25,897 nt of DNA. Origin: a virus. This document shows, piece after piece, positions 1-15,908 of the stretch. The position numbers and the translations under genes were made by a program. Each line of letters begins with the position of its first letter. Position 1 is the first letter of the stretch. The notes under the pieces were generated by a model. That model was given only the letters and a program-made list of their open reading frames with translations. It was not told where the DNA came from and did no database searches. The stretch covers positions 1 to 25,897 of the IMG/VR virus record IMGVR_UViG_3300044858_002001, one strand, 5' to 3'.

Positions 1-56
1 TCGGTAAGCATAGGTAGTTCGGAGCTGTTCCAGACCTCCCTACCTATGCTTACCGA
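1..56. repeat. Perfect inverted repeat 1, 17-bp arms, 22-nt spacer
   Basis: Bases 1-17 are the exact reverse complement of bases 40-56, with spacer 18-39. The repeat lies beyond the minus-strand terminator that ends the 132-aa gene. It is followed by CCCAAACA, an octamer also present in the arms of the two other perfect repeats in this block. The left arm begins at the first base of the window, so the stem may continue outside. Role unknown: it could be an RNase III-type processing hairpin, an insulator or a protein-binding site. Confidence 0.9.
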
Positions 57-84
57 CCCAAACAAAATAGCATTTTGGTAATAC

Positions 85-120
85 AAAAATAGCCCACTCC
101 GCTATTTGCGAAGTGGGCTA
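85..120 (-). terminator. Intrinsic terminator of the leftmost minus-strand unit
   Basis: On the minus strand a 13-bp stem (bases 120-108 pairing with 102-90, one mismatch) is followed directly by a run of five T. It begins ten bases after the stop of the 132-aa gene. Confidence 0.8.
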
Positions 121-129
121 TCGTATTTG

Positions 130-528
130 TTAAATGTAGCGCACTACATCTTTATACAATGACGCACCAACGAACGGGTCAGTAGTCATGTTAAGCAGTT
201 TTATCGTGTTGTTGATTTCCTCTGCTTGATGATTTGGTAGTGTTCCTTCAGGGCTATCTGCTCTTTCAGGTTCTTTAGGCAAGGCTGAGGTTTCTTTGTA
301 GGTGTATCGGATTTCTACTTGATTTCTCCAAGTAGATACATTTACATCCTCAAAGTCCAACTTGCCAGACTTGGCTAGAGAAGCCAACTTTTCTGCCCAA
401 GCCTTTTTATCAGCCTCATACTTGGCGTTGTTTTTTTCCTGAATAGCGTTAGCCTTTTCGCCCAACGCTAATCTATCTTGTAGAGCCTTGATAAGCATAG
501 CCTTATCTACTTTTACTCTAGCGGTCAT
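130..528 (-). CDS. Hypothetical phage protein, 132 aa, coiled-coil N-terminus
   Basis: I do not recognise this family. Residues 1-55 are rich in Lys, Ala and Glu with heptad-like spacing and should form a helix or coiled coil. A beta-type segment (about 60-80) and an acidic, proline-containing linker follow, then a short C-terminal helix. There is no signal peptide, membrane segment or Cys cluster. The ATG at 528 shares its first base with the stop codon of the upstream 161-aa gene, so the two are translationally coupled and transcribed from the motif at 1075-1104. The unit ends at the terminator at 85-120. That the gene is real is fairly certain from the coupling and terminator; its function is unknown. 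Confidence 0.8.
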   Translation of the reverse strand: MTARVKVDKAMLIKALQDRLALGEKANAIQEKNNAKYEADKKAWAEKLASLAKSGKLDFEDVNVSTWRNQVEIRYTYKETSALPKEPERADSPEGTLPNHQAEEINNTIKLLNMTTDPFVGASLYKDVVRYI

Positions 529-1013
529 TAGTTGCCACCTTCCGTAATAGGTGTATCAGCATTTTGTTCCAATCCCTCAACGACCTTTGGGTGTAGTTCC
601 TTACGCATAGTTCCCATCGCTGAGTTTGTCCAGCCAGCCTCAATAACTCTGTATAGCAATTTTGCTAAACTGTATTGAGAGTTGGTTTGTAGTGCGAAAG
701 CCAACGCTTCCTTAGCACTTTCCTCTGCGCCAAGTTCATAATAGAAAGCAGATAGGCACGCATAGAACGGCACTTTATCCATTTCATTATCAACTTGGTT
801 GATTACATTTACGGCTACTGAGGTCATAACCTCTAGGTTGTCGCACTTGGCTAGACCTAAGAAGTAATCTCGGTGCTGTAAGTTAGTAGTCATAGCGACT
901 ACGGCATTAGCAACCGCTTCCTGCGGATACTCTTGCTTATCTAACTCAGCAGATACTAGAGTGTCTATTGCTTCCACTCCATCTCTCCAAGTTAGTTGGG
1001 TTGTTGTATTCAT
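528..1013 (-). CDS. DUF4192-like phage protein, 161 aa
   Basis: The C-terminal half, with a helical repeat reading like ACLSAFYYELG, an AKEALAFAL helix and YSLAKLL, resembles the C-terminal part of actinobacterial DUF4192 proteins, where a TPR-like helix pair precedes a 'sLA.LL' motif. Function of DUF4192 is unknown. The protein is much shorter than chromosomal DUF4192 proteins, so it is a reduced phage version or a look-alike. The start is ATG at 1013 behind GGAAGGTGAGAG. Just upstream is a leader hairpin of 8 bp (TTAGCAGA/TCTGCTAA), and 61 nt upstream the first copy of the 30-bp motif. It is the first gene of a two-gene unit with the 132-aa protein. Family assignment is from memory of the motif pattern. 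Confidence 0.7.
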   Translation of the reverse strand: MNTTTQLTWRDGVEAIDTLVSAELDKQEYPQEAVANAVVAMTTNLQHRDYFLGLAKCDNLEVMTSVAVNVINQVDNEMDKVPFYACLSAFYYELGAEESAKEALAFALQTNSQYSLAKLLYRVIEAGWTNSAMGTMRKELHPKVVEGLEQNADTPITEGGN

Positions 1014-1025
1014 CTCTCACCTTCC

Positions 1026-1060
1026 CATTAGCAGACCATCTGCTAATAAGAGAACTCTCT
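1026..1060 (-). promoter_or_regulatory. Structured leader of the 161-aa gene
   Basis: On the minus strand the leader reads GTTCTCTTAT, then a hairpin with 8-bp arms TTAGCAGA/TCTGCTAA and a TGG loop, then GGGAAGGTGAGAG and the ATG at 1013. The GTTCTCTTAT and GGGAAGGTG elements recur in the leader of the 120-aa gene at 3624, around a hairpin of different sequence. This suggests a structural element that presents or hides the ribosome site. Confidence 0.6.
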
Positions 1061-1074
1061 CATGCTCATTGGTG

Positions 1075-1104
1075 TAAAGCAGACTTGTTATCTAATCGTT
1101 ATAA
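1075..1104 (-). promoter_or_regulatory. Copy A of 30-bp bipartite promoter/operator motif
   Basis: Minus-strand TTATAACGATT, three variable bases (AGA), then TAACAAGTCTGCTTTA. The same 27 fixed bases occur at 2302-2331 and 3689-3718, each 60-75 nt upstream of a minus-strand start codon. TATAAC could serve as a -10 box. The two TAAC blocks are 11 bp apart, about one helical turn, which would also fit a bound regulator. Confidence 0.8.
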
Positions 1105-1105
1105 A

Positions 1106-1184
1106 TGTTTGGGTTGGCTACTATGGCTATGGCTGGCGTGTTCACTAGCGTTCACAGCCATAGCCATAGTAGCCAACCCAAACA
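1106..1184. repeat. Perfect inverted repeat 2, 30-bp arms, 19-nt spacer
   Basis: Bases 1106-1135 and 1155-1184 are exact reverse complements. The outer 12 bases of the left arm, TGTTTGGGTTGG, also form the right outer end of repeat 3. The repeat sits between the terminator of the DUF932 gene (1186-1220) and motif copy A (1075-1104), that is, at a boundary between two minus-strand units. Confidence 0.95.
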
Positions 1185-1185
1185 A

Positions 1186-1220
1186 AAAGCCCCCCAAGCT
1201 TTTTAGGCTTGAGGGGCTTT
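1186..1220 (-). terminator. Intrinsic terminator of the DUF932 gene
   Basis: On the minus strand a 14-bp stem (1220-1207 with 1199-1186, one imperfect pair) with a CTAAAAA loop is followed by a T-rich stretch. It lies three bases past the stop of the DUF932 gene. Confidence 0.8.
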
Positions 1221-1223
1221 GTG

Positions 1224-2228
1224 TTATGCCGAGACTGCTTCTCGCACTACTGAGAGGATGCGAGCCTTCTCCGCATTTACAACTGGGTCAAACCCACTTG
1301 CTCCTGCGATTAATGACTCATTGCTTCCACGCTTTGCACGATAGTAATCAAGGCGCTCGGTGAGAGCGTTGAGCGCTCCCCATGCTGTGCCTTTGATGTT
1401 GGCATTAGTTGGAGATTGCAGATATAGGTCCTGGATTAGACCAATCTTGTTATCGTAGCGAGTGATAGCAACCTTGTTGGCTGTATCTTCAGGCTTTGGA
1501 TAAAGAGTCTCAACAATCTTGCTGAATTGAACGTTAGTTATTGTTGATTCGAATAACTCACGAGCCATGGTCTCGAATGAATCCATGTGTGCGAATGTCA
1601 AACCGAGAGCCTCTCGGGCTGCAGCGATACGACCGTCGACTGTGCTTGTGTGACGAATCTTGAATGATTGCTTAGAACCATTCAATGCCATGTTAAGAGT
1701 GTTTTGGCAAACAACTCTAACTGGTGTGATGTTCGCTTGAACTGCTGTTGAGCCGTCATGCGAAGTGTGAACGAGTAGATAAGTTGTTGTCTTATCGTTA
1801 GCGCCCTGCTCATCTAAGATGAACTCTCTAGGCACTACCAATGAGCCGAACACGACTCTACCATTCTTGATTGAGCCAGCGGATTCCCATGAGGCACCGC
1901 CGTCTAGTATGCCGTCACCGAATGCGAATAACTCCTCATTCTGCACGACTTTGTATCGGTCACCGACCACTGATAGAACATCAGTGCCCTGTCCGAATGG
2001 ATTAGTCCGAGTCACCATATATGACTCAGAAACGAAGTTGTAATCGTCTTTCTCGATTAACTCAAGATTGACATTCCAATCGTTTAACTTAGCAGACTTG
2101 AGCATAACCTCAGTGGTTACATTCTCATCTTTGTCGAATAGAGCGTTAGCAAGGCCATGCCATGCGGGCTCTCCTCTAAGTGCGAACGCAACTGTGCCGT
2201 CCTCACCTATCTCTAACTCATGTGCCAT
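1224..2228 (-). CDS. DUF932 phage/plasmid-like protein, 334 aa
   Basis: The protein matches the DUF932 family (TIGR03299 'phage/plasmid-like' type). Its N-terminus has the GEPAWHGL box, the centre has the VGDRYKVVQN block near residue 90, and then VRVVCQNTL near 175 and a helical C-terminus. The family is common on phages and plasmids of actinobacteria; its biochemical role is not established. A longer frame extends to 2258, but AAGGTGAGAG lies six bases before the ATG at 2228, giving MAHELEIG as the N-terminus, so I chose that start. The gene stands alone as a transcription unit: motif copy B and a leader hairpin precede it, a terminator follows it. Length is typical for the family. Confidence 0.92.
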   Translation of the reverse strand: MAHELEIGEDGTVAFALRGEPAWHGLANALFDKDENVTTEVMLKSAKLNDWNVNLELIEKDDYNFVSESYMVTRTNPFGQGTDVLSVVGDRYKVVQNEELFAFGDGILDGGASWESAGSIKNGRVVFGSLVVPREFILDEQGANDKTTTYLLVHTSHDGSTAVQANITPVRVVCQNTLNMALNGSKQSFKIRHTSTVDGRIAAAREALGLTFAHMDSFETMARELFESTITNVQFSKIVETLYPKPEDTANKVAITRYDNKIGLIQDLYLQSPTNANIKGTAWGALNALTERLDYYRAKRGSNESLIAGASGFDPVVNAEKARILSVVREAVSA

Positions 2229-2237
2229 GTATCTCTC

Positions 2238-2275
2238 ACCTTCTATTAGCACAAACACCAGCGACTTGCTGATAG
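2238..2275 (-). promoter_or_regulatory. Structured leader of the DUF932 gene
   Basis: The minus-strand leader contains GTTCTACCTATC, a small hairpin (ATCAGC/GCTGGT with one G-U pair), and AAGGTGAGAG before the ATG at 2228. It resembles the leaders of the other two motif-driven genes in layout, but the hairpin sequence differs. Confidence 0.45.
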
Positions 2276-2301
2276 GTAGAACATTAGACCATCTCTCCTA
2301 G

Positions 2302-2331
2302 TAAAGCAGACTTGTTATGCAATCGTTATAA
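2302..2331 (-). promoter_or_regulatory. Copy B of 30-bp bipartite promoter/operator motif
   Basis: Identical to copy A at 27 of 30 positions; the three-base spacer is GCA on the minus strand. It lies 73 nt upstream of the DUF932 start codon, and inverted repeat 3 begins five bases further upstream. Confidence 0.8.
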
Positions 2332-2336
2332 AGCCC

Positions 2337-2411
2337 CCAACCCAAACATTCAGCCAATCAGCCGCAGAAGCAATAGCGATAGGCGGCTGATTGGCTGAAT
2401 GTTTGGGTTGG
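2337..2411. repeat. Perfect inverted repeat 3, 29-bp arms, 17-nt spacer
   Basis: Bases 2337-2365 and 2383-2411 are exact reverse complements with spacer 2366-2382. The outer bases CCAACCCAAACA are shared with repeat 2; the rest of the arm is unrelated. It lies upstream of motif copy B, in the same position that repeat 2 has relative to copy A. Confidence 0.95.
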
Positions 2412-2458
2412 CCGCCCTCTCTGCGAGGATTGGAAACTCAAGCAGAGAGTGCGACCAA
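2408..2458. repeat. Imperfect inverted repeat 4, 17-bp arms, 17-nt spacer
   Basis: Bases 2408-2424 pair with 2442-2458 over 17 positions with one mismatch and one G-U wobble; the inner 8 bp (CTCTCTGC/GCAGAGAG) are perfect. It overlaps the end of repeat 3 by four bases, so two long hairpins are stacked back to back just after the stop of the 74-aa membrane gene. There is no T-run on the minus strand, so it is not a classical intrinsic terminator. Confidence 0.75.
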
Positions 2459-2465
2459 CATCTGT

Positions 2466-2690
2466 TTAGAACGGAGGCTTGCTGTTCTGTGCCTCGTTCC
2501 AATCTTGGTAAGTATCCATGTCATCAAGAGGTGGCTCAAGCTGACTTGTATACCAATCATTTATATCTTGTTCACCTGCGCCGTAGCCTTCAATAAATCC
2601 TTCTCGTCGTCCAATTCGATAGAAGGTGAAGCCTACTATGCAAGCAAGGATTATGTCTATCATCAGATTAAATCCATTGTAAAACATCAT
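2466..2690 (-). CDS. Small single-pass membrane protein, 74 aa
   Basis: Unrecognised protein with one membrane segment (about residues 8-26, rich in Ile, Leu, Ala and Phe) followed by RIGRREG and an acidic, aromatic tail, suggesting an N-out, C-in helix anchor. A longer frame starts at a GTG at 2741, but that would place the terminator-like hairpin at 2716-2738 inside the gene. The ATG at 2690, behind TTGGAG at eight bases, is the better start and gives MMFYNGFNLM. It follows the 84-aa gene in the same direction. Function cannot be inferred; possibilities include host-envelope or superinfection functions, with no direct evidence. Confidence 0.65.
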   Translation of the reverse strand: MMFYNGFNLMIDIILACIVGFTFYRIGRREGFIEGYGAGEQDINDWYTSQLEPPLDDMDTYQDWNEAQNSKPPF

Positions 2691-2715
2691 TGCATTACTC
2701 CAATCTAGTAGAGAA

Positions 2716-2738
2716 GGGGGCGAGTATTTCCCGCCCCC
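2716..2738 (-). terminator. GC-rich hairpin after the 84-aa gene
   Basis: Seven-bp stem GGGGGCG/CGCCCCC with a nine-base loop, eight bases past the stop of the 84-aa gene on the minus strand. The following bases TTCTCT are only weakly T-rich, so it may be a partial terminator or attenuator before the 74-aa membrane gene. Confidence 0.5.
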
Positions 2739-2745
2739 CACTTTG

Positions 2746-3000
2746 TTACTGTTGTATTAAGCGCTCGTATTCCTCGTGCGCTTGGCGTAGGTTTGCTAGA
2801 CGACCTTCGTCTAGTGTAGTTACTGCGCTATCCAACTTCTCGGATAGTTCTTTGGCTTGTTTAAAGTTAAGCCACATTGCTATTCCACAGATTTCAACGA
2901 TTACCTCGTTGTCTGTTTCACGGGGACGAACCGAGATGTCTATTGACTCCTCGGCTTTGCAAGCCCACAGAGTTATATCTGTGTAGTCGGCTCTTGCCAT
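2746..3000 (-). CDS. Hypothetical phage protein, 84 aa
   Basis: No family recognised with certainty. The protein begins with a beta-rich half (DISVRPRETDNEVIVEICG) and ends in two amphipathic helices (FKQAKELSEKLDSAVTTL and a Glu/Arg-rich tail). It has two Cys that are not arranged as a metal site, no signal peptide and no membrane segment. The ATG is preceded by a purine-rich GGAGAAGTAA site on the minus strand. It is followed by the GC-rich hairpin, and upstream lies one of the two 29-nt direct repeats. The beta-then-helix layout resembles many small actinophage early proteins of unknown role. Confidence 0.75.
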   Translation of the reverse strand: MARADYTDITLWACKAEESIDISVRPRETDNEVIVEICGIAMWLNFKQAKELSEKLDSAVTTLDEGRLANLRQAHEEYERLIQQ

Positions 3001-3028
3001 TTACTTCTCCAATCGTTCTAGTAGTTAG

Positions 3029-3057
3029 GTGAGCCTTTTTAACTCATGCTCAGGAGT
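3029..3057. repeat. 29-nt intergenic direct repeat, copy 1
   Basis: Starts GTGAGCCTTTTTA and ends CTCATGCTCAGGAGT. It matches 3218-3246 with a single substitution. Within it TGAGC and GCTCA can form a 5-bp stem. It lies upstream of the 84-aa minus-strand gene. Confidence 0.9.
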
Positions 3058-3063
3058 GACGGA

Positions 3064-3186
3064 CTACTTACATTGTTCTAGCAAGTAGTTATTAACTATC
3101 TGCCAATCTGTTTCAGTTACAGGTTCGACCTTGTTAAACTTTAACTCGGTGATTGTAACCTTCACGACATCTCTTACAAGAGCCAT
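3064..3186 (-). CDS. Small protein, 40 aa
   Basis: Short reading frame starting ATG at 3186 with a strong TTGGAGG site seven bases upstream on the minus strand. The product (MALVRDVVKV... EQCK) has a beta-type first half and an amphipathic helical second half. It sits exactly between the two copies of the 29-nt direct repeat, so each small gene here has its own upstream repeat. Not recognised; short length makes it less certain, but the ribosome site and the fit to the spacing of neighbouring genes support it. Confidence 0.6.
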   Translation of the reverse strand: MALVRDVVKVTITELKFNKVEPVTETDWQIVNNYLLEQCK

Positions 3187-3217
3187 GTTCTTACCTCCAA
3201 TCTAATCTAGTGGGTAA

Positions 3218-3246
3218 GTGAGCCTTTTTACCTCATGCTCAGGAGT
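3218..3246. repeat. 29-nt intergenic direct repeat, copy 2
   Basis: Second copy of the repeat at 3029-3057, one mismatch. It lies between the stop of the 120-aa gene (3262) and the start of the 40-aa gene (3186) on the minus strand. Confidence 0.9.
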
Positions 3247-3261
3247 AATGCTATTAAGTTG

Positions 3262-3624
3262 TTAGTAGACCGAGATGTGGTCCATGTCTGCAGACTCTGA
3301 CTCAATGCACATGTCATTGTCGTCAGACTCGAAGCCTTCAGGGTAACGAAGGTTTTCCGAGATTTCGTCCTCTGTCCAGCCAAGGGGAACTGTAACAGTG
3401 AGCGAATAAGTAACCTTCACCTCAACCTCAACCGACTTGGTTAGGTCAATGCTGAAGATTTCAGCGATAGGCTCGGCATGTTCGCCGAGGTCGTCGAAGT
3501 TCTCGACGATGTATTCACGAAGTTGTGCCACCATGACACGATACTGCGTGATTTGCTCTGAGAAGCGAGAGGCTCTTGCGGTTACCTCTCCTAACTCTGA
3601 GCAGGTGTTGGACTCTGTGTCCAT
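3262..3624 (-). CDS. Acidic hypothetical protein, 120 aa, under the SOS-box promoter
   Basis: Not recognised. Residues 1-55 are helical, a strongly beta-patterned stretch follows (EVEVKVTYSLTVTVPLGW), and the last 35 residues are very acidic (DDND, ESESADMD). The net charge is strongly negative, which in small phage early proteins can indicate DNA mimicry, but nothing here proves that. The frame could start at a TTG at 3639; ATG 3624 behind GGGAAGG is better. It is the first gene downstream of motif copy C and the perfect LexA-type box at 3730-3745, so it is the best candidate for DNA-damage-controlled expression in the window. Confidence 0.75.
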   Translation of the reverse strand: MDTESNTCSELGEVTARASRFSEQITQYRVMVAQLREYIVENFDDLGEHAEPIAEIFSIDLTKSVEVEVKVTYSLTVTVPLGWTEDEISENLRYPEGFESDDNDMCIESESADMDHISVY

Positions 3625-3631
3625 AAGCCAC

Positions 3632-3672
3632 CTTCCCAATCTATCGGGTGTCTGTCCCGATAAGAGAACAAT
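3632..3672 (-). promoter_or_regulatory. Structured leader of the 120-aa gene
   Basis: On the minus strand GTTCTCTTAT is followed by a hairpin (ATCGGG/CCCGAT with a seven-base loop) and GGGAAGGTG before the ATG at 3624. The flanking elements match those of the 161-aa gene's leader; the stem sequence does not. Confidence 0.6.
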
Positions 3673-3688
3673 GCCATAGGCGAGAGGC

Positions 3689-3718
3689 TAAAGCAGACTT
3701 GTTACCAAATCGTTATAA
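3689..3718 (-). promoter_or_regulatory. Copy C of 30-bp bipartite promoter/operator motif
   Basis: Same 27 fixed bases as copies A and B, spacer TGG on the minus strand. It lies 64 nt upstream of the 120-aa gene. Here the upstream position that holds a long inverted repeat in the other two copies is occupied by the SOS box. Confidence 0.8.
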
Positions 3719-3729
3719 TCGCTGTCCTC

Positions 3730-3745
3730 TCGAACATCTGTTCGA
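3730..3745. promoter_or_regulatory. Perfect LexA-type SOS box
   Basis: TCGAAC, four bases, GTTCGA: this matches the actinobacterial LexA operator consensus (TCGAAC-N4-GTTCGA) exactly and is a perfect dyad apart from the central four bases. It ends about 11 bp upstream of the conserved TTATAAC block of motif copy C, near where a -35 region would lie, in the space between divergent gene sets. Binding by host LexA would repress in the absence of DNA damage. The site is read directly; function is inferred. Confidence 0.8.
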
Positions 3746-3848
3746 CCCCCCCACCATTAACGACACGCCCGACCTCGTGGGCCGCCAGGGCAAATATATA
3801 GGTGACATGTGAAAAGCTAGGCAGTAGCCTAAGTGATACTCTTCCGCG

Positions 3849-4328
3849 GTGGACAATAAAAGAATTATGCGTAAGTACTCGAAAGGTTATCTTGCGTTTA
3901 CTCAAGGCAAGTTTGATGAGTGGGCAGTTTATGTTAAGTATCCGAACTTTCCAGAATGGCCTACAGACAAGTGGTACTTTATAAAATTACGGGTGTATCA
4001 GCAATATGTAGGAAAAGCGGCTTACGAAGATTTTTGCGGGTTATACGATAAAACTACTGCAGATGTAAGTGATGAAGTATTTGATTGGATTGAAGAGATT
4101 TCTAAGAAGTACCCTAATCCTGAAGAGACAGCTGTGGTATTTGGTATCTACTACATGACTATGATTGCTGAAGAGAACAAAGAGTTTGCGGTGCTGAAGA
4201 AACGCATTAAACGGCTTGGAGTACATCAAGTGCTGGTAGAGGGCCTAAAGCCAGAGTTGGCTGCTAACTTCTCTAAAGGACGCCCTGCCTGGGAGCTTGT
4301 ACACGAATGTCACGACAGAGGGTTCTAA
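3849..4328 (+). CDS. Hypothetical protein, about 159 aa, first gene of rightward train
   Basis: Not recognised. A mostly helical soluble protein with many aromatic residues in its first third (WAVYVKYPNFPEWPTDKWYF), which suggests a folded globular domain. There is no metal site, membrane segment or Walker motif. The start is uncertain: GTG 3849 gives 159 aa and ATG 3867 gives 153 aa. Neither has a clear ribosome site; GATACT at 3835-3840 could be a -10 box for a nearly leaderless transcript from the GTG, as is common in actinobacteria. It is the first plus-strand gene after the divergent control region. Confidence 0.75.
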   Translation: MDNKRIMRKYSKGYLAFTQGKFDEWAVYVKYPNFPEWPTDKWYFIKLRVYQQYVGKAAYEDFCGLYDKTTADVSDEVFDWIEEISKKYPNPEETAVVFGIYYMTMIAEENKEFAVLKKRIKRLGVHQVLVEGLKPELAANFSKGRPAWELVHECHDRGF

Positions 4329-4348
4329 TACCTGATTAATTCTCTTGC

Positions 4349-4585
4349 ATGCCCTACTATTGCCCAATGTTTACACAATGGTTATTAGCACAACGTGAAA
4401 TGAGCGGGGAGGTCGGCCTAGCTGGAAAGCTTGCCTGGGCGGAGATAAACAACGGCATGGTAGCTCGTAAGGACCATCCACTATTCTTCTGGAAAGAGCA
4501 CTTTGAGCATAGAGGCAGGCCTGATTTGTTCAGGTTATTTCTTGTTGCCTATTTAGAGTTTAAAGAAACATCTTCTAAGGCATAA
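4349..4585 (+). CDS. YozE-like SAM-fold protein, about 78 aa
   Basis: From residue 7 the sequence MFTQWLLAQREMSGEVGLAG resembles the YozE SAM-like family (PF06855): an aromatic-x-x-WL start, a 'vgdLA' type turn, an acidic 'D..fP' region and a closing LF..YL helix. That fold is a small helical bundle of unknown function, found in Firmicutes and phages. ATG 4349 and ATG 4367 are both possible; 4367 matches the domain boundary better but neither has a good ribosome site. The domain call is from pattern recognition only. Confidence 0.6.
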   Translation: MPYYCPMFTQWLLAQREMSGEVGLAGKLAWAEINNGMVARKDHPLFFWKEHFEHRGRPDLFRLFLVAYLEFKETSSKA

Positions 4586-4592
4586 TTCTTAT

Positions 4593-4799
4593 ATGAACCC
4601 TAATGACTCTCAGTGGAACGTAGTTCAGCTATCAGAGAAGCGCTTTAGTAAAGCCAATGCCGCTTCATCTCAGTTTGGACCCATTCGTAAAGGTATCGTG
4701 AAACCTAAGTCATCTAAACAGGGGGATAGCGATTCATTACGCCAACACGAAGATGAAGCTATCGCACTAGGCAACAGCTGGCGTGATGCGGATAAGTAA
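4593..4799 (+). CDS. Small hypothetical protein, 68 aa
   Basis: Hydrophilic, Ser/Lys/Gln-rich and likely disordered, with no recognisable motif. Its stop codon shares a base with the ATG of the next gene (TAATG), so the two are coupled. Part of the train of tiny genes between 4349 and 6941. Confidence 0.6.
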   Translation: MNPNDSQWNVVQLSEKRFSKANAASSQFGPIRKGIVKPKSSKQGDSDSLRQHEDEAIALGNSWRDADK

Positions 4800-4942
4800 T
4801 GTCCGCAAAGTTTAAGCGAGCCTCTAAATTTAATCCCATCCAAATAAAGGATGGACACATCGTACGCCTTCGTAAAGATGGACGCATCGCAGCAGTTCTA
4901 GATACATGGCCTCCTTCTAACAATAAGAAAAAAGACAAGTGA
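4799..4942 (+). CDS. Small basic protein, 47 aa
   Basis: The ATG overlaps the stop of the preceding gene (TAATG), and the stop overlaps the GTG of the next (GTGA). The product begins MSAKFKRASKF, has a beta-hairpin-like centre (HIVRLRKDGRIAAVL) and a lysine-rich tail. Strongly basic, so nucleic-acid contact is possible. Not recognised. Confidence 0.6.
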   Translation: MSAKFKRASKFNPIQIKDGHIVRLRKDGRIAAVLDTWPPSNNKKKDK

Positions 4943-5121
4943 AGGAATCCGTAGGTGTAGTTACTGCATATTTGCCTCGGTCAAGCGAATTTGCAAAAGG
5001 TCAACAGTTTAGAAGAATAAGCGACCGTATATTTGGGGGACCACGAGGTACTGTTCAACGGTATTCTTCTTCTATGGCAGCAAGAGATGTTGTTTCTAAA
5101 TCAATTGAGAGACAAAAATGA
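4939..5121 (+). CDS. Small basic protein, 60 aa
   Basis: GTG start inside the previous gene's stop region (GTGA, four-base overlap); the stop overlaps the next ATG. The sequence is Arg/Ser-rich (RRISDRIFGG, RYSSSMAARD) and not recognised. Confidence 0.55.
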   Translation: MKESVGVVTAYLPRSSEFAKGQQFRRISDRIFGGPRGTVQRYSSSMAARDVVSKSIERQK

Positions 5122-5225
5122 CAGAACGTAATACGGATGTTGATTGGAAACTTCAAAATGAGCTGCATAAACAGTGGCTTAAAGATAATCCAGATGCTCA
5201 ATATGCTGGATGGACTTCAATATGA
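5118..5225 (+). CDS. Micro-protein, 35 aa
   Basis: ATG overlaps the upstream stop by four bases (ATGA) and its own stop overlaps the next ATG in the same way. The product (MTERNTDVDWKLQNELHKQW...) is Trp-rich and helical. Short, but the chained overlaps support translation. Confidence 0.5.
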   Translation: MTERNTDVDWKLQNELHKQWLKDNPDAQYAGWTSI

Positions 5226-5305
5226 GTGAGAGTGGATACGCCGACACTTGGTTAGAAGACGAGTATGATTATGGAATTATGACTTACGTAAGGAGCAGCA
5301 ACTAA
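5222..5305 (+). CDS. Micro-protein, 27 aa
   Basis: ATGA overlap with the preceding gene. The product is acidic and Tyr-rich (DTWLEDEYDYG). Its last codons contain AAGGAG, which is the ribosome site of the next gene, so part of its role may be to couple translation. Confidence 0.45.
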   Translation: MSESGYADTWLEDEYDYGIMTYVRSSN

Positions 5306-5616
5306 TGGGACGTAACAACGCAGACTTTAGTGCAGGAAATAAGTTAGACCCTCGTGTTTTTATAGATGGTAAGCACGTTGGTTTTCAAGACCAAGACGGA
5401 AACTTTATGAATTGGGACCAAGATACAGCGGCTCAAAAGCATTACGCTGCACAAGGTTACAACAAAGGTACTGCTGGCGACATGCTTAAAAAGTCTAAAG
5501 CTCGTATTGCTGAGTCAACTGCAGCTGGAAGCGGTTCTAATCAAAACGCACGAAAAGCCAGTAAAGAAAGAACAGCTGCAAGAGAAGAAGCGCGTCGTCA
5601 AGAACGCGGTGAATAA
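5305..5616 (+). CDS. Hypothetical protein, 103 aa
   Basis: The first half (RVFIDGKHVGFQDQDGNFMNW) looks like a short beta domain. The second half is a charged, Ala/Arg/Glu-rich helix ending EEARRQERGE. ATG is preceded by AAGGAG within the previous gene and shares a base with its stop. Its stop shares a base with the HNH gene's ATG. Function unknown; the adjacent HNH gene is its only recognisable partner. Confidence 0.7.
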   Translation: MGRNNADFSAGNKLDPRVFIDGKHVGFQDQDGNFMNWDQDTAAQKHYAAQGYNKGTAGDMLKKSKARIAESTAAGSGSNQNARKASKERTAAREEARRQERGE

Positions 5617-5906
5617 TGGCCGAGGCAAAAAAGTTTGGACCTTACAAAGGTTCTAAGAAAAACGGTGGACGCCCTATATACGTCTACAAGAAAAAAGTAA
5701 ATGGCAAGTGGGTAACAACTTCTAAGGATAAGGCCCGTGCTGATTACGAGTCTAAGAATGGCAAGCTACCTAAGGGGACCGATGTTGACCACAAAGACAA
5801 TAACAAAAATAACGATTCTCCTAGCAACCTTCGCGCTATTTCTAAAAGTAAGAACGTGGCGAAAGAAAACAAGCGTCGAGCAGGCAAAAAAGAGAATGAA
5901 AAATAA
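5616..5906 (+). CDS. HNH endonuclease, 96 aa
   Basis: Small HNH nuclease. The catalytic box is VDHKDNNKNNDSPSNL (residues 57-72): Asp58-His59 supply the general base region, Asn71 the central Asn, and N80 with the KNVAKEN segment stands where the third ligand position lies. This is the HNH_3-like form common in phages, without zinc-binding Cys pairs. Such enzymes cut or nick double-stranded DNA as free-standing homing nucleases or as packaging-associated nucleases next to terminase. Here it lies about 16.4 kb upstream of terminase, among tiny genes, which favours the free-standing type. ATG overlaps the upstream stop. Confidence 0.8.
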   Translation: MAEAKKFGPYKGSKKNGGRPIYVYKKKVNGKWVTTSKDKARADYESKNGKLPKGTDVDHKDNNKNNDSPSNLRAISKSKNVAKENKRRAGKKENEK

Positions 5907-6172
5907 TGCCTAGAAATAATGGGGACCTATCTCAAGGTCAAGAAGACGGTTCTGAAAAGAAAGCTCGTAAACCCCACCCAGGTATATCATTTCCGTTGCC
6001 TTCTACAGTTAAGTCTAAAAATAAAATTCCTGACTCTTTCTCTTTAAAACAAGAGAATCCTTGGGTTGAGGGTGGGCCACTAGCTGATACTGCAGAAAAG
6101 CCTAGAAGCAAAGCTGGCGATGATGATGATATGTTCCGTTTTGGAGCTGCTGGAAGGAGAAGAAAACTTTGA
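5906..6172 (+). CDS. Disordered hypothetical protein, 88 aa
   Basis: Rich in Pro, Ser, Lys and Asp, no folded domain visible, with a DDDDMF segment and a basic RRRKL end. ATG overlaps the HNH stop (TAATG). Not recognised. Confidence 0.6.
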   Translation: MPRNNGDLSQGQEDGSEKKARKPHPGISFPLPSTVKSKNKIPDSFSLKQENPWVEGGPLADTAEKPRSKAGDDDDMFRFGAAGRRRKL

Positions 6173-8001: not shown

Positions 8002-10725
8002 ATGTTAATACTGCGCATATTCGCAGCAACAGTCCTCACATTATTCCTATTTTTGCTTGGTCAATCAACCGCGAGCGCAACTGACCCTACCCCAGAACAG
8101 GTAGCAGTTAGTCCTGCTTCCACAGAGTCTTCGACCGCAACTGCTCCAACTCCATCTCCAAGTCCAGAACCCTCTTCTGCAACTTCGGACCCTCAAACTT
8201 CCAATACGAGTTCTGATGTTGTGGCAAGTCCTGCCCCGTCGTCTTCACCGTCTTCTGAGCCAACGCCTTCTCCAACACCAACACCAACACCAACACCAAC
8301 ACCAACACCAACACCAATCCCAGAACCAACAAGCACACCGCCGCAAACAAATCCATCAATAACCTCCGTTCAAGAAAAAATTGAGGAAGCAACTGTAACA
8401 TTGACAACGGCTGTGAGCGCAGCAAGTCCAGCACAAGTTTCAGCAGCCACAGAGCCAGTAGCAACAGCTCAAACAGCTATTGCGGCAGCAGAGTCAGCAA
8501 CAGCAGTAGCAGTAACCGCAGTAGCAGCAGTTGAGTCACAAACAGCAGTAGTAGCCGTAGTAACGCAGGACGTTACTACTGCAACCGCAGTTGTTGCTAC
8601 AGCCACAGCAGCAGTAGAGTCTCAAACAGCAGTAGTAGCAGTTGCAACCACCAACTTAACTAATGCTCAAACTACATTGACCGCTCTTCAGAATACCCCT
8701 TCAGATAGCAAAACTTATACAACCGAAGGCTATGTAGCCCCTGTTGCTCCTGAAACTCCAACAGTTACTACAACCACACTCCCAACTATGTATGACGGCT
8801 TTACAAAAATTAATACGCCTTTTGACATAAAAATGGGTAACACGGTGTATGAAGGTCAAGGAACAAACAGCCAAATTTACGTAACCTCAAAAGCAACGAT
8901 TACCTTTGGCAATGGCGACTATAACTGGTGGGATTTTCCAGCAGGAGCACATATCTCAGTCTTTGGCAGCGACTTTATGAACGATAACGCAAATGGCTCT
9001 TCAACTGTTGTGAAAACTACCGAAACTACTTTAGAAGTCGATTGGAATTTGCACAAATTTGCACAACCAAATAGCCCTATTACAAATGTAAATTGGAAAA
9101 TGACAGTCAATCCAACAACAGGGGAATGGACTGGTGTTGGAACCGTTTCGGGAAACACAACACAACTGCATAACGGACCACGTATCGGTGTTCGTGAAGC
9201 AGCAGGTCAAGCAGTACAACAAATGACTAATGTAACTAACGAAACTTTAACTGCTCAAATTACTGAGCAAACAGCTGTTGTAGCTGATAAGACAGAGGTT
9301 AAGGCAGAAGCCGTTGCAACACTCACAACTCTTACAGCAGAGAAAACAACAGCAGAGACAACGCTTGCAACAGCTCAGACCACACTAACAACAGAGACTC
9401 AAACATTAACTACCCTACAATCAACAGCTACAACAGCAATTACTACTGCCAATACTTTAGCTGATACCGCTACATCTACAGTTGCTACTGCAGTCACAGC
9501 TCTTCAAACTCCAACTCCTCAGCCAACTCCAACACCCGAGCCAACTCCCGCACCGCAGCCAGAGCCAACACCAGCCCCACAACCAGAGCCAGCACCACAA
9601 CCCGAACCTTCACCAGAACCTCCTACAGTTCCACCAGTGGACCCTGCCCCCACAAATCCTGACCCGGTTCCAACACCTCAACCCGAGCCTCAACCTGAAC
9701 CAGTCTCTCCTGAGCCTGTTGACCCTGTAAATCCCAATCCAGAGCCACCCGTTGAGATTGAGCCCACTCCTGAACCTGAGCCGCAGCCAACCCCAGAACC
9801 TGAGCCTGTTCCTGAGCCAGAGATTGAACCCGTTCCTGAGCCAACTCCAGAGCCTGAACCAACTCCTGAACCCGAATCACCTACTGACCCTGAAACTGAT
9901 ACAGAAGAGCCATCAGAACCCACAGAAGAGCAATCACCAGAGGAAGCGCCCGAAGAGTCACCCGTAGAAAACGAGGAGAGTCCTTCGGAAGACGAAACAC
10001 CCGTGGAAGAAGAATCACAACCAGAGTTACCAGAAACAGAGCCAGAAAATCCGTTAGAAGAATCATCCCCAGAGACTATCACAGAATCTGAAGAAGTTAC
10101 GTCTGCGGTAGAGGATGTGCTATCTGATGGGAAACTTTCTGCTGCTGATGCTGATGCTGTTATGGATGCCTTAAACGCAGACGGAGAAGTAACTGCTGAA
10201 GAGGTATCGGCTTTGTCTGATGCGTTATCTGCTGACGGAAAACTGACTACCGCTGAAAAAGAATTGATAGCGGAAGCTCTTATTGAATCAGTTGCCTCTG
10301 GAGAAACTCTTACCTCAGAGCAAATTCAAGAGGCTGGTATTGAGTATAAAGACTTACCGGCAGAGACACCTGTTGAGGTTAGGCAGGATGAGAACGGAAA
10401 CGAAGTTATAATTACAGCAGACGTAGCCGCGGCTCTAGTTCTTCTAGAGAACCCATCCGAATTAATTGGCGCAATATTTAGCGACCCAGGTGAGGCACTA
10501 CAAGCACTCGGAAGTATCGGTGCAGATATGTCCCCTGAAGAACGTGAAGAAGCAACTGAAATGGTAGTTGCTGCCGTTGTGGCTGCAGGTGCTGCTATGA
10601 ATGCAGTTAGTGCAGCAGCAGGTGCTACTGGAGGTTCAACCTCTGGAGGCTCAAGTGGTGGAGGAAATTCTGGGGGAGGAGCTCCTTCCGGAGATAGTAA
10701 GGGAGTTAGGAGACGTAAACCATGA
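8002..10725 (+). CDS. Secreted Pro/Thr/Glu-rich surface protein, 907 aa
   Basis: Residues 1-27 are a clear Sec signal peptide (hydrophobic core, STASA cleavage site). Then come a Pro/Ser/Thr stalk with ten or so PT repeats (about 85-105), an Ala/Thr/Val helix-forming region (120-235), a folded beta domain (about 262-395, Trp- and Asn-rich), a second Thr/Ala helical region (400-495), a Pro-Glu repeat region (500-640) turning very acidic, and a short calcium-site-like pair (LNADGEVTAEE, LSADGKLTTAE, about 715-755). It closes with an Ala/Val hydrophobic stretch, a Gly/Ser run and RRRKP. The plan is that of a wall-spanning surface protein, but there is no LPXTG motif. It is translated just upstream of the lysis genes, so it may act in the host envelope rather than the virion. 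Confidence 0.85.
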   Translation: MLILRIFAATVLTLFLFLLGQSTASATDPTPEQVAVSPASTESSTATAPTPSPSPEPSSATSDPQTSNTSSDVVASPAPSSSPSSEPTPSPTPTPTPTPTPTPTPIPEPTSTPPQTNPSITSVQEKIEEATVTLTTAVSAASPAQVSAATEPVATAQTAIAAAESATAVAVTAVAAVESQTAVVAVVTQDVTTATAVVATATAAVESQTAVVAVATTNLTNAQTTLTALQNTPSDSKTYTTEGYVAPVAPETPTVTTTTLPTMYDGFTKINTPFDIKMGNTVYEGQGTNSQIYVTSKATITFGNGDYNWWDFPAGAHISVFGSDFMNDNANGSSTVVKTTETTLEVDWNLHKFAQPNSPITNVNWKMTVNPTTGEWTGVGTVSGNTTQLHNGPRIGVREAAGQAVQQMTNVTNETLTAQITEQTAVVADKTEVKAEAVATLTTLTAEKTTAETTLATAQTTLTTETQTLTTLQSTATTAITTANTLADTATSTVATAVTALQTPTPQPTPTPEPTPAPQPEPTPAPQPEPAPQPEPSPEPPTVPPVDPAPTNPDPVPTPQPEPQPEPVSPEPVDPVNPNPEPPVEIEPTPEPEPQPTPEPEPVPEPEIEPVPEPTPEPEPTPEPESPTDPETDTEEPSEPTEEQSPEEAPEESPVENEESPSEDETPVEEESQPELPETEPENPLEESSPETITESEEVTSAVEDVLSDGKLSAADADAVMDALNADGEVTAEEVSALSDALSADGKLTTAEKELIAEALIESVASGETLTSEQIQEAGIEYKDLPAETPVEVRQDENGNEVIITADVAAALVLLENPSELIGAIFSDPGEALQALGSIGADMSPEEREEATEMVVAAVVAAGAAMNAVSAAAGATGGSTSGGSSGGGNSGGGAPSGDSKGVRRRKP
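8271..8318 (+). repeat. Hexanucleotide tandem repeat coding for PT repeats
   Basis: Tandem copies of ACACCA/CCAACA code for alternating Pro-Thr. A six-base unit keeps the reading frame, so copy changes would alter stalk length, not switch the gene off. Confidence 0.8.
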
Positions 10726-13832: not shown

Positions 13833-15908
13833 ATGTCACACGGGTACGTCAAAACACCAAGTGGCTGGCAAGCAGCATCTGCTTATTATGTAAAAGTTAA
13901 TGGTGCTTGGAAAGTTGTTACTAATACTTATGTAAAACATAACGGTGTTTGGCGTCAATCTTTTCCAGCAGCTCCTCCCCCACCTCCACCTCCGCCTCCT
14001 CCTCCTCCTCCTACTCCTCCTACTCCTCCTCCTTCCGGCGGCGGCGGCGTAGTTTCTTGCGTAAGCATAGGATTTTATTACTGTAACGGTGCATCAATTG
14101 TTTCAGGCGGAGCTGTGTGCGGAACAGATAATGGTGTCCCATTTGGTGGGTGTACAACAGGCTCTTGTTGTTCTTATTGGCAAAACCTCTCAGGTAATCC
14201 AAGCAACTGGATTTGTGGTGCTTCAGGAAGTGTAAACCAACCTACCTGCGGTAGCGGCGGAGATGTGTGTCCACCAGCTACTACTACTGGAGGAACTTGT
14301 TATTGCACTTCTGCTGATATATCTAATCCTTGCAGCCCTTGCACAAGTACTTCTCAAACAGGAGCTTGTGGTAACAGATACACAGGTGCGACTTATTGCG
14401 GAGCTTCTTACGGATTTAGCTCAGGTCCTCAAGCAGATGCTACTTGTCCTTCTGGTTTTCGCAGGTACGATACTTATACTTTTGAAGTATCTTCTTGTAA
14501 CTATAGCGTTGCAGACGTCTGCATTGCGCCACAAGGAGGTGGCTGTAGTCAAACTACTACAGGTGGAACTTGTTACTGTTCTGGTGCCGATATTTCAAAT
14601 TCTTGTAGCCCTTGCACAAGTACATCACAGTCTGGACCTTGTGGTAATTACTACTCAGGAGCAAATGTTTCAGTAAACTCTTATTCTTGGAAATGCACAA
14701 CTTCAGTTCAATGTGCTGGCACAGGAAATTGCGGTACCTCTGAATCTGCATCAGATGTTTCTGCAAGTGGTTCAGGTTATTCAACACAATGTATTTATAA
14801 CAACACTGGAGCATATCCAGCATGTCAGTCTACAAACTGCGGCAGTAGTAGTCCACCGCCCCCACCACCACCTCCACCAGCACTTGACTGTGTTACCTGT
14901 GCACTAGGAACAACTCAAGTTTCGTGTCAAGTTTACAACCCAATTTCCGGAACGTTTGTTGCAGGAACACAGACAAGATGTATAACAAACATTGGTTGCC
15001 CAGATACGTATGGCCCTTGCGTTGCGTCTGGAGGCGGTACTCCGCCTCCCCCACCACCACCACCACCACCTCCTGCTTGCACATTTTTATATACTTACGG
15101 TGAGTACAGAGCATCTTGTGGGTCTACTGTAACTATTACAGTTACTTCTTGCGGTGAGTCATTTACTTGTCCAACTCCACCGCCAGCATTTCCACCACCA
15201 CCGCCGCCACCTACTTGTACATGTAACTATGTAAATTACGGAACATATCTTTACGCACCTGAGTGCTGTGCTCCTGATTGCTGTCCAAATATTCAACTAG
15301 GCGGTGGCGGCAATCCACCACCTCCTCCTGACCCAGGTCCGCCTCCTCCTGACCCAGGTCCGCCTCCTCCTGACCCAGGTCCGCCTCCTCCTTCTCCTGA
15401 CCCATTTATACTTCCACCAATCGGACCCATTAAATCTATTGGTGTAAACACTTTGTTAAGAACGCCAGATGGACTAATTGTTGCTGGAAGTGTTGAAGTA
15501 GGAGACGTGCTGCTTTCCGCAGATATTGAAGGGTTCCCTTATGAAGACCTTCCAGGCTCTACTTTGGCTGCAATAAATTGGTCTTCAAAGAACCCAGTGT
15601 TTACTACCGTGGAAACAACAGTTGTTAGTATTACTAGAAGAACCGCTTCTAGAGGTGTGGTAATAAACAACGATTTGTTCTCTGATACTCACTATGTTCT
15701 AGTTAAAAAAGGAGCTAAAGCTTTATTTGTTCTGTCTACAGAAGTGTCTATTAGTGACAAGGTTTATAATTACCAAACCAGTAGTTGGGAAGACATAAAG
15801 TATCTTAAGACTGGTGAAATACCTCACGAAGTTGTTTCAATAGACTGTGAACCGTATGACGTGTTTTATACTGAACATCTATTGGTGCATGATTCTGTAA
15901 GCCTTTAG
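13833..15908 (+). CDS. Pro/Cys-rich tail adhesin with C-terminal Hint domain, 691 aa
   Basis: Residues 5-41 hold three short repeats of the type YVK..g.WK. Residues 48-67 are a polyproline run. A Cys-rich region (75-335) includes a duplicated block (about 149-180 and 240-271) with the core TTTGGTCYC...CSPCTSTSQ. More polyproline linkers (341-349, 404-414, 454-460) separate shorter Cys-rich segments; then a DPGPPPP repeat (495-522). Residues about 535-691 are a Hint (hedgehog/intein) domain: Ser535 in SIGVNT at the nucleophile place, T-P-D-G after it, SDTH (His620), and a terminal FYTEHLLVHD. Such Hint ends on phage fibres can cleave or modify the chain. No signal peptide. Probable receptor-binding structural protein. 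Confidence 0.85.
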   Translation: MSHGYVKTPSGWQAASAYYVKVNGAWKVVTNTYVKHNGVWRQSFPAAPPPPPPPPPPPPPTPPTPPPSGGGGVVSCVSIGFYYCNGASIVSGGAVCGTDNGVPFGGCTTGSCCSYWQNLSGNPSNWICGASGSVNQPTCGSGGDVCPPATTTGGTCYCTSADISNPCSPCTSTSQTGACGNRYTGATYCGASYGFSSGPQADATCPSGFRRYDTYTFEVSSCNYSVADVCIAPQGGGCSQTTTGGTCYCSGADISNSCSPCTSTSQSGPCGNYYSGANVSVNSYSWKCTTSVQCAGTGNCGTSESASDVSASGSGYSTQCIYNNTGAYPACQSTNCGSSSPPPPPPPPPALDCVTCALGTTQVSCQVYNPISGTFVAGTQTRCITNIGCPDTYGPCVASGGGTPPPPPPPPPPPACTFLYTYGEYRASCGSTVTITVTSCGESFTCPTPPPAFPPPPPPPTCTCNYVNYGTYLYAPECCAPDCCPNIQLGGGGNPPPPPDPGPPPPDPGPPPPDPGPPPPSPDPFILPPIGPIKSIGVNTLLRTPDGLIVAGSVEVGDVLLSADIEGFPYEDLPGSTLAAINWSSKNPVFTTVETTVVSITRRTASRGVVINNDLFSDTHYVLVKKGAKALFVLSTEVSISDKVYNYQTSSWEDIKYLKTGEIPHEVVSIDCEPYDVFYTEHLLVHDSVSL
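13975..14035 (+). repeat. CCT/CCX triplet run coding polyproline
   Basis: A low-complexity run of CCT and CCA/CCC codons encodes the first polyproline linker of the adhesin. Frame-preserving if it slips. Confidence 0.85.
15330..15392 (+). repeat. Three tandem 21-nt repeats (DPGPPPP linker)
   Basis: Three exact copies of a 21-nt unit beginning GACCCAGGTCC encode D-P-G-P-P-P-P in the linker before the Hint domain. In-frame copy changes would vary linker length. Confidence 0.92.

Follow-up and report, generated by a model that had tools for sequence, protein, structure and literature searches.

Perfect inverted repeats with site-specific arms in a gene block of related, probably actinobacterial, phages

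Inverted repeats at the start of the record

The window analyzed here is the whole of one virus record (IMGVR_UViG_3300044858_002001; 25,897 bases). Its start is occupied by three inverted repeats (hairpins 1 to 3), by terminator-like stems and reverse-strand genes of a single block, and by copies of a 32-bp motif with an operator-like core (Table 1). The pattern described in the earlier note is confirmed. The stem at the first base of the window is real, with 17 perfectly complementary pairs around a 22-base loop and CCCAAACA directly after its right arm, and repeats 2 and 3 are likewise perfect, with TGTTTGGGTTGG common to one outer end of each; relative to the loop, the shared sequence stands in opposite senses in the two. 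A chance origin of these hairpins is ruled out by a shuffle test, in which 100 dinucleotide-shuffled versions of the window gave no perfect stem longer than 13 bp, against the 30, 29 and 17 observed (loops of up to 45), and by the excess of TGTTTGGG, which occurs seven times on both strands of the window against 1.0 expected, five of these occurrences being hairpin ends. A sigma-70 scan of window positions 1-4400 was uninformative, yielding one promoter-like site against 6.6 expected. The third motif copy lies upstream of a gene at 3262-3639, and a short TCGAACA/TGTTCGA hairpin is found just beyond it (window 3688-3740). Elsewhere in the window, positions 8002-10725 and 13833-15908 each encode a long protein containing proline-rich repeats; that at 13833-15908 is also cysteine-rich.

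Table 1. Features of the hairpin block in the window.
Feature	Position	Strand	Details
Hairpin 1, cut off by record end	1..64		inner arms 1-17 / 40-56, loop 18-39, outer right arm CCCAAACA 57-64
Terminator-like stem with T run	88..122	-	between gene 130-528 and hairpin 1
Hairpin-block gene, no Pfam match	130..528	-	
Hairpin-block gene, DUF4192 match	528..1013	-	downstream of hairpin 2
32-bp motif copy 1	1074..1105	-	11-bp direct-repeat operator-like core TAACGATTAGATAAC at 1087-1101
Hairpin 2, type A (TGTTTGGGTTGG outermost left)	1106..1184		perfect 30-bp arms, 19-base loop
Terminator-like stem with T run	1186..1220	-	between gene 1224-2258 and hairpin 2
Hairpin-block gene, DUF932 (PHROG 1221)	1224..2258	-	downstream of hairpin 3; marker used to find relatives
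32-bp motif copy 2	2301..2332	-	core TAACGATTGCATAAC at 2314-2328
Hairpin 3, type B (CCAACCCAAACA outermost left)	2337..2411		perfect 29-bp arms, 17-base loop
32-bp motif copy 3, without long hairpin	3688..3719	-	core TAACGATTTGGTAAC at 3701-3715

Since the window is the entire record, nothing to the left of its first base can be read in it, and the outer left arm of hairpin 1 is missing. The first 22 bases of this hairpin are present in four other viral contigs (L006-L009), and the bases to its left were read in these relatives. The sequence predicted there, TGTTTGGG, is found in all four, where it extends hairpin 1 to a perfect stem of 25 bp around the 22-base loop; the earlier observation was right, and the predicted continuation holds in close relatives. 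The companion suggestion, that another motif copy might lie beyond TGTTTGGG, was borne out in part. Leftward of TGTTTGGG the relatives read TTTATTTGGTAACGATTTGATAACGATTA (TTTACTTGG in L008), with GGTAACGATTTGATAACGATTA standing left of the completed stem, and this flank contains TAACGATTTGATAAC, identical at 14 of 15 positions to the core TAACGATTAGATAAC of motif copy 1. The 15-bp core is there, in the opposite orientation to the window motif, and the AAGTCTGCTTTAC half is absent. The complete hairpin in L008 has a DNA fold of -31.6 kcal/mol (z -12.6). In L014, the gene to the left of the hairpin runs away from it and encodes a 262-residue protein with a DUF1281_C match.

A hairpin family in related phages

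Relatives were gathered through DUF932, with 80 loci kept of 160 found, and perfect stems of at least 18 bp with loops of up to 45 were searched for in 128 sequences. This yielded 127 perfect hairpins, overlapping loci being counted repeatedly; of one set of 42 contigs, the resulting table lists those that have a perfect 18-bp stem. The hairpins are a family within one lineage of related, probably actinobacterial, phages. Both DUF932 (about 55% identity) and terminase (about 55%) have their closest isolate relatives in Streptomyces phages, and an actinobacterial host is hence likely. On a tree of 47 DUF932 proteins, a single change explains the presence of the outer module.

Usually a gene and its terminator are followed by a perfect inverted repeat, then by an operator-like box and the next gene, and a terminator-like stem lies upstream of 56 of 69 hairpins. 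By eye, nearly all hairpins carry an outer module, which is TGTTTGGGTTGG in the species of the window and TGTTTGTGTYGG, TTGTTGAGTTGG, TTGTTACGTTGG, TTGTTAGGTTGG, TTGTTGGGTTGG or TTGCTGGGTTGG in other phages; L015, L020 and L028 carry two or three variants from the last-named ones. The arm ends are nearly constant within one phage. Hairpins with TTGTT..GTTGG outermost left were termed type A and the reverse type B, and in the sense-oriented loci having both (L010, L015, L016, L017, L019, L020 and L052) type B lies upstream and type A downstream of a point near DUF932. In long records, scanned over their whole length, the hairpins are confined to one block of a few kb: module-bearing hairpins occur solely at 82.2-87.8 kb and at 5-70 in G008 (88.6 kb), solely at 82.3-85.7 kb in G010 (98 kb), within 6.1 kb of the start of G007 (46 kb) and within 2.4 kb of the start of G011 (95 kb), which also has one module-less 15-bp stem at 88.9 kb. 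The longest reported arms, of 64 bp, belong to a perfect inverted repeat with a 12-base loop (L171:7356-7495) that extends on each side over module and operator-like repeats. Immediately after the hairpin block of L019, an AAA ATPase is followed by a VWA-domain protein (L019:6882-10396), and a similar-looking pair is found in L014.

A search of bacterial genomes with the type A pattern returned matches in 13 genome contigs, five of which (L194, L195, L197, L198 and L200) have a perfect stem of at least 15 bp at the matched place, while the stem of L201 overlaps that place. By eye, none of the 13 shows a phage-type module beside the same layout. A literature search, with most subscription papers outside its reach, found no paper on such hairpin elements.

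Constant ends and site-specific inner arms

The arms stay perfectly paired although their inner sequence varies from site to site. Among 97 module pairs, in a table that takes in L095, L096, L107 and L124 from the range L090-L127, 79 have at least 60% inner pairing, and these 79 contain 30 mismatches in 948 inner pairs, the 18 pairs below 60% having been dropped from this count. The inner arms carry an 8-bp word that is doubled and specific to the site. Matches at a lag of eight bases number 147 of 250 in type A hairpins of the TTGTT kind (66 in shuffles, z 12) and 91 of 163 in type B (47 in shuffles, z 8.2), with a weaker signal of 27 of 62 in type A of the TGTTTG kind (16 in shuffles, z 3.2). 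The words differ among the hairpins of one phage, and some recur, by eye, at the same gene in different phages, as does TTGCCT after DUF932 in L017, L019, L020 and L052. Doubled, site-specific words within perfect arms make this an unusual kind of DNA element.

These features bear on a somewhat improbable, if serious, alternative to our preferred interpretation, in which the inverted 12-mers alone would matter, as a pair of protein-binding sites, and the perfect inner arms would be a by-product of template switching during replication, with one arm copied onto the other. Such a process would be consistent with the inner mismatches, which lie at the loop end in the 17 imperfect rows shown, with the occurrence of loops in both orientations, and with the long arms of L171, which take in module and operator-like repeats alike. 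It is also in line with pairs in L036, L050, L071, L083 and L088 whose inverted 12-mers flank an unpaired inner part, and which indicate that full pairing is not always needed. Against it, the inner arms are not free, since their word is doubled at 8 bp in all three classes of hairpin, and similar words appear, by eye, at the same gene in different phages.

Possible cassette borders and recombination

Two comparisons of loci show junctions at the hairpins. L042 differs from L045 (and L044) over about 0.7 kb, and each of the two breakpoints of this stretch lies within a hairpin. L016 has, relative to L010, an extra gene and hairpin between hairpin B and DUF932, joined at the hairpin and the operator-like box. 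Over 19 locus pairs, 45 of 136 breakpoints are no more than 20 bp away from a hairpin, where 18 would be expected. This count is inflated by matches between paralogous hairpins, to which every one of the 22 breakpoints between the near-identical L185 and L192 belongs, so that only the two cases followed base by base, L042/L045 and L010/L016, are firm. The junctions fit cassette gain and loss at hairpins, by way of short homology or of something more specific. That the hairpins exist as cassette boundaries for recombination, in a somewhat integron-like system of gain and loss, nonetheless seems unlikely to us: both firm junctions and the raw excess of breakpoints speak for it, but the excess is the inflated figure just described and short common homology would be enough to produce the junctions.

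A probable element of DNA rather than RNA

The hairpin likely acts at the DNA level. In 59 sense-oriented module pairs, the sense-strand mismatches comprise 10 G·T, 10 A·C and one other, whereas the 56 terminator-like stems upstream of the hairpins have 14 G·T, no A·C and two others (Fisher p 0.0017 for the G·T/A·C contrast); the module set covers loci L010-L089, with nine rows of less than 60% inner pairing among them added back by hand, and leans on few lineages, L020 and L028 supplying 12 of its 21 mismatches. The loops do not keep to one orientation either. Among 29 loops of the TTGTT kind, 18 run one way by eye, seven the other, and four are unclear; a crude script rule called the same 29 as 11 forward, six reverse, three both and nine neither, differing from the eye at L028 2516. 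Moreover, L017 and L019 have one orthologous loop in opposite orientations. Of 68 hairpins, 11 have a T run directly after the right arm, and the pattern is thus not that of an intrinsic terminator; the terminator scan of the window, with its loop limit of 8, was blind to hairpins 1 to 3. The symmetry of the mismatches, the two loop orientations, the scarcity of T runs and the terminator-like stem already present upstream together point to a DNA element.

An RNA element (an RNase III site, a back-up terminator or a stability hairpin) is correspondingly very unlikely. It would account for the strong folds, computed here with DNA parameters, and for the compensated changes in the apical mini-hairpins of L042 and L044, which are as expected of RNA and were compared among stems chosen beforehand as perfect. 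Opposed to this are the lack of a G·U excess on the sense strand, unlike in the terminator-like stems alongside, and the other three lines of evidence listed above. An Rfam search of window positions 1-6000 gave seven matches, all of them microRNA precursors below gathering scores.

Six records begin or end inside a hairpin of the family or within five bases of one (the window, the contigs of L017, L021 and L186, G007 and G008). The window starts inside a stem, probably as a result of the assembly having broken at the palindrome, and the practical corollary is that assemblies of these phages may break at their hairpins. That hairpin 1 is itself a product of chance or of assembly at a record end, as the stopping of this and five other records at a palindrome might suggest, can be practically dismissed, for it is complete inside four other contigs.

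Operator-like boxes beside the hairpins

Of 66 hairpins, 51 are followed within 70 bp by one of five box patterns, and the other 15, which include all four of L018, have none of the five there; the 66 are what is left of 69 rows after setting aside L018 6561 and L020 6564, which are neighbors and not members of the family, and one row without 40 downstream bases. The box varies between lineages while the hairpin stays, with forms that may be described as CRP/GlxR-like, DnaA-like, PhoP-like and MtrA/GlnR-like, names that reflect sequence likeness and partial fits to the consensus. On the DUF932 tree, box type requires six changes among 27 module-bearing rows and eight among 46, with labels assigned by hand that are weak for L022 and L050. 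Two sister pairs starred on this tree, L015 with L018 and L020 with L028, differ in box.

In L083, TGTGAN6TCACA occurs seven times against 0.04 expected; three of the seven have a central TA and four lie within 10 bp of a right-hand module. L083 and L088, and not the window, were compared with the GlxR operator consensus TGTGANNTANNTCACA (PMC4254451). All seven palindromes of the CRP/GlxR type in G021 (87.5 kb) are found at 2.2-8.4 kb, and all eight in G022 (93.4 kb) at 13.3-19.4 kb, five of the eight within 10 bp of a module. Palindromes of this type cluster solely around the DUF932 block (L083:2186-8439, G022:13293-19440), and no CRP-like domain was found in these two phages. Two or more CRP/GlxR-type boxes are present in 28 of the 80 DUF932 loci kept of 160, most of them without modules.

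A second box, TTATCCACA, which we take to resemble the DnaA box, is found in L026, L031, L036, L038, L039, L042, L044, L046 and L071. It occurs eight times in L031 against 0.24 expected, and in whole records it is concentrated in the same manner, with nine of 10 copies at 80.8-87.1 kb in G010, six of seven in the first 3.9 kb of G011 (the other at 95.0 kb) and all eight at 22.1-28.0 kb in G020.

The remaining boxes are direct repeats. L015, L020 and L052 have 11-bp direct repeats of GTTYACC, and L020 has five sites of the long form GTTYACCTNNNGTTYACCT against 0.00 expected. These loci, and not the window, were compared with the PHO box, which consists of two 11-nt direct repeats with GTTCACC (PMC6988585); the spacing of the L020 sites fits, and one or both of their repeats have GTTTACC in place of GTTCACC. 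TAAC recurring at a distance of 11 bp is the box of the window, L017, L019 and others. TAACNNNNNNNTAAC occurs five times in the window against 1.3 expected (two of 100 shuffles reach five), which is weak when taken alone, and three of the five are the motif copies. The MtrA site is [GT]T[GA]ACC-N5-GT[GT]ACN, direct repeats about one turn apart (PMC5650626), and the bases of the window box fit a site of the MtrA/GlnR type only in part.

A phage-encoded regulator of the CRP, OmpR or DnaA type was considered and set aside: the corresponding DNA-binding domains are each found in none of 27 phage records (16 + 11, that of the window included), an absence made weak by the many fragments among them. 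From it we infer that host proteins would bind the putative boxes.

Relation to known systems

The nearest known system is the extended start-associated sequences (ESAS) of Cluster K mycobacteriophages, of which two of the three features tested are lacking here. ESAS have imperfect 17-bp arms, a spacer of mostly 4-13 bp and a 13-bp SAS at the start codon (PMC3203893). Both elements are inverted repeats that recur in front of some of the non-structural genes of an actinophage, and a consensus that differs between subclusters has its counterpart in modules that differ by phage (TGTTTGGGTTGG, TGTTTGTGTYGG, TTGTTGAGTTGG, TTGTTACGTTGG and others). The hairpins described here depart from ESAS in having perfect arms of up to 64 bp with loops mostly of 13-50 (30, 29 and 25 bp in the window, the last as completed in relatives, with loops of 19, 17 and 22), in being usually followed by an operator-like box, and in their site-specific inner arms. 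The SAS, GGGATAGGAGCCC, has no match in the window with up to two mismatches.

A likeness also exists with Streptomyces phage Jay2Jay (Stanwilliamsviridae), one of the kind of phages in which the closest DUF932 relatives among isolates are found; there the palindrome GTCCGNNNCGGAC occupies, by eye, the same slot between terminator and promoter in the leaders shown; it occurs ten times in the first 11.5 kb (L128:754-11509) against 0.02 expected in 25 kb. The Jay2Jay palindrome differs in being short, and the first 25 kb of this phage have no module and a single module-less 18-bp hairpin (9967-10027). No GlxR, DnaA or PHO-type boxes were found in the same 25 kb, where one TAAC-type match is present. 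The kind of block, and its place in Jay2Jay, lead us to infer that the genes of the hairpin block are probably early.

Integron attC sites are palindromes between gene cassettes that are variable inside and constant at the ends. The hairpins of these phages are also palindromic, lie between cassettes and have nearly constant ends and a variable inside, but they have perfect arms, and a promoter seems to belong to every cassette. In phage N4, short DNA hairpins at early promoters are recognized by the virion RNA polymerase. The two cases would share a DNA hairpin as part of early promoters and differ in that the hairpins here are long and upstream of an operator-like box.

A possible mechanism and its meaning

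We tentatively interpret hairpin 1, with belief and doubt close to balance, as a member of a repeated DNA element that heads single gene cassettes, probably of early genes. Each cassette would open with the terminator of the preceding gene, continue with the perfect inverted repeat and an operator-like box specific to the clade, and close with the promoter region and the gene. Speaking against this interpretation are the third motif copy of the window, which has no long hairpin, and the 15 hairpins with none of the five boxes. The element may act as double-stranded or extruded (cruciform) DNA, not as RNA, and a protein, probably tuned to each phage, may read the 12-mers. The analysis linked none of the phage proteins to the 12-mer; a small protein of L019 (5874-6218) that by eye resembles a helix-turn-helix of the Cro/CI type, with no Pfam match, is a candidate reader. 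The perfect arms might permit extrusion when the block is strongly transcribed, and extrusion would separate each promoter from its neighbor and present the 12-mer beside the site of a host activator. The distinct inner words, in turn, would prevent recombination between hairpins that share a genome.

A broader and more speculative proposal, to which we give rather little credit, is that of a plug-in gene system, in which separate cassettes would each stand under a barcoded, extruding DNA hairpin that marks their border, together with a swappable site for a host master regulator (GlxR/CRP, DnaA, PhoP, MtrA or GlnR) suiting the present host. If this were true, a phage lineage could rewire its whole early program with the hairpin kept. 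The gene block would be wired to regulators of host physiology, responding to cAMP, replication, phosphate or nitrogen state, and would be rewired as a set, and the way in which uncultured phages sense the state of their host would become testable.
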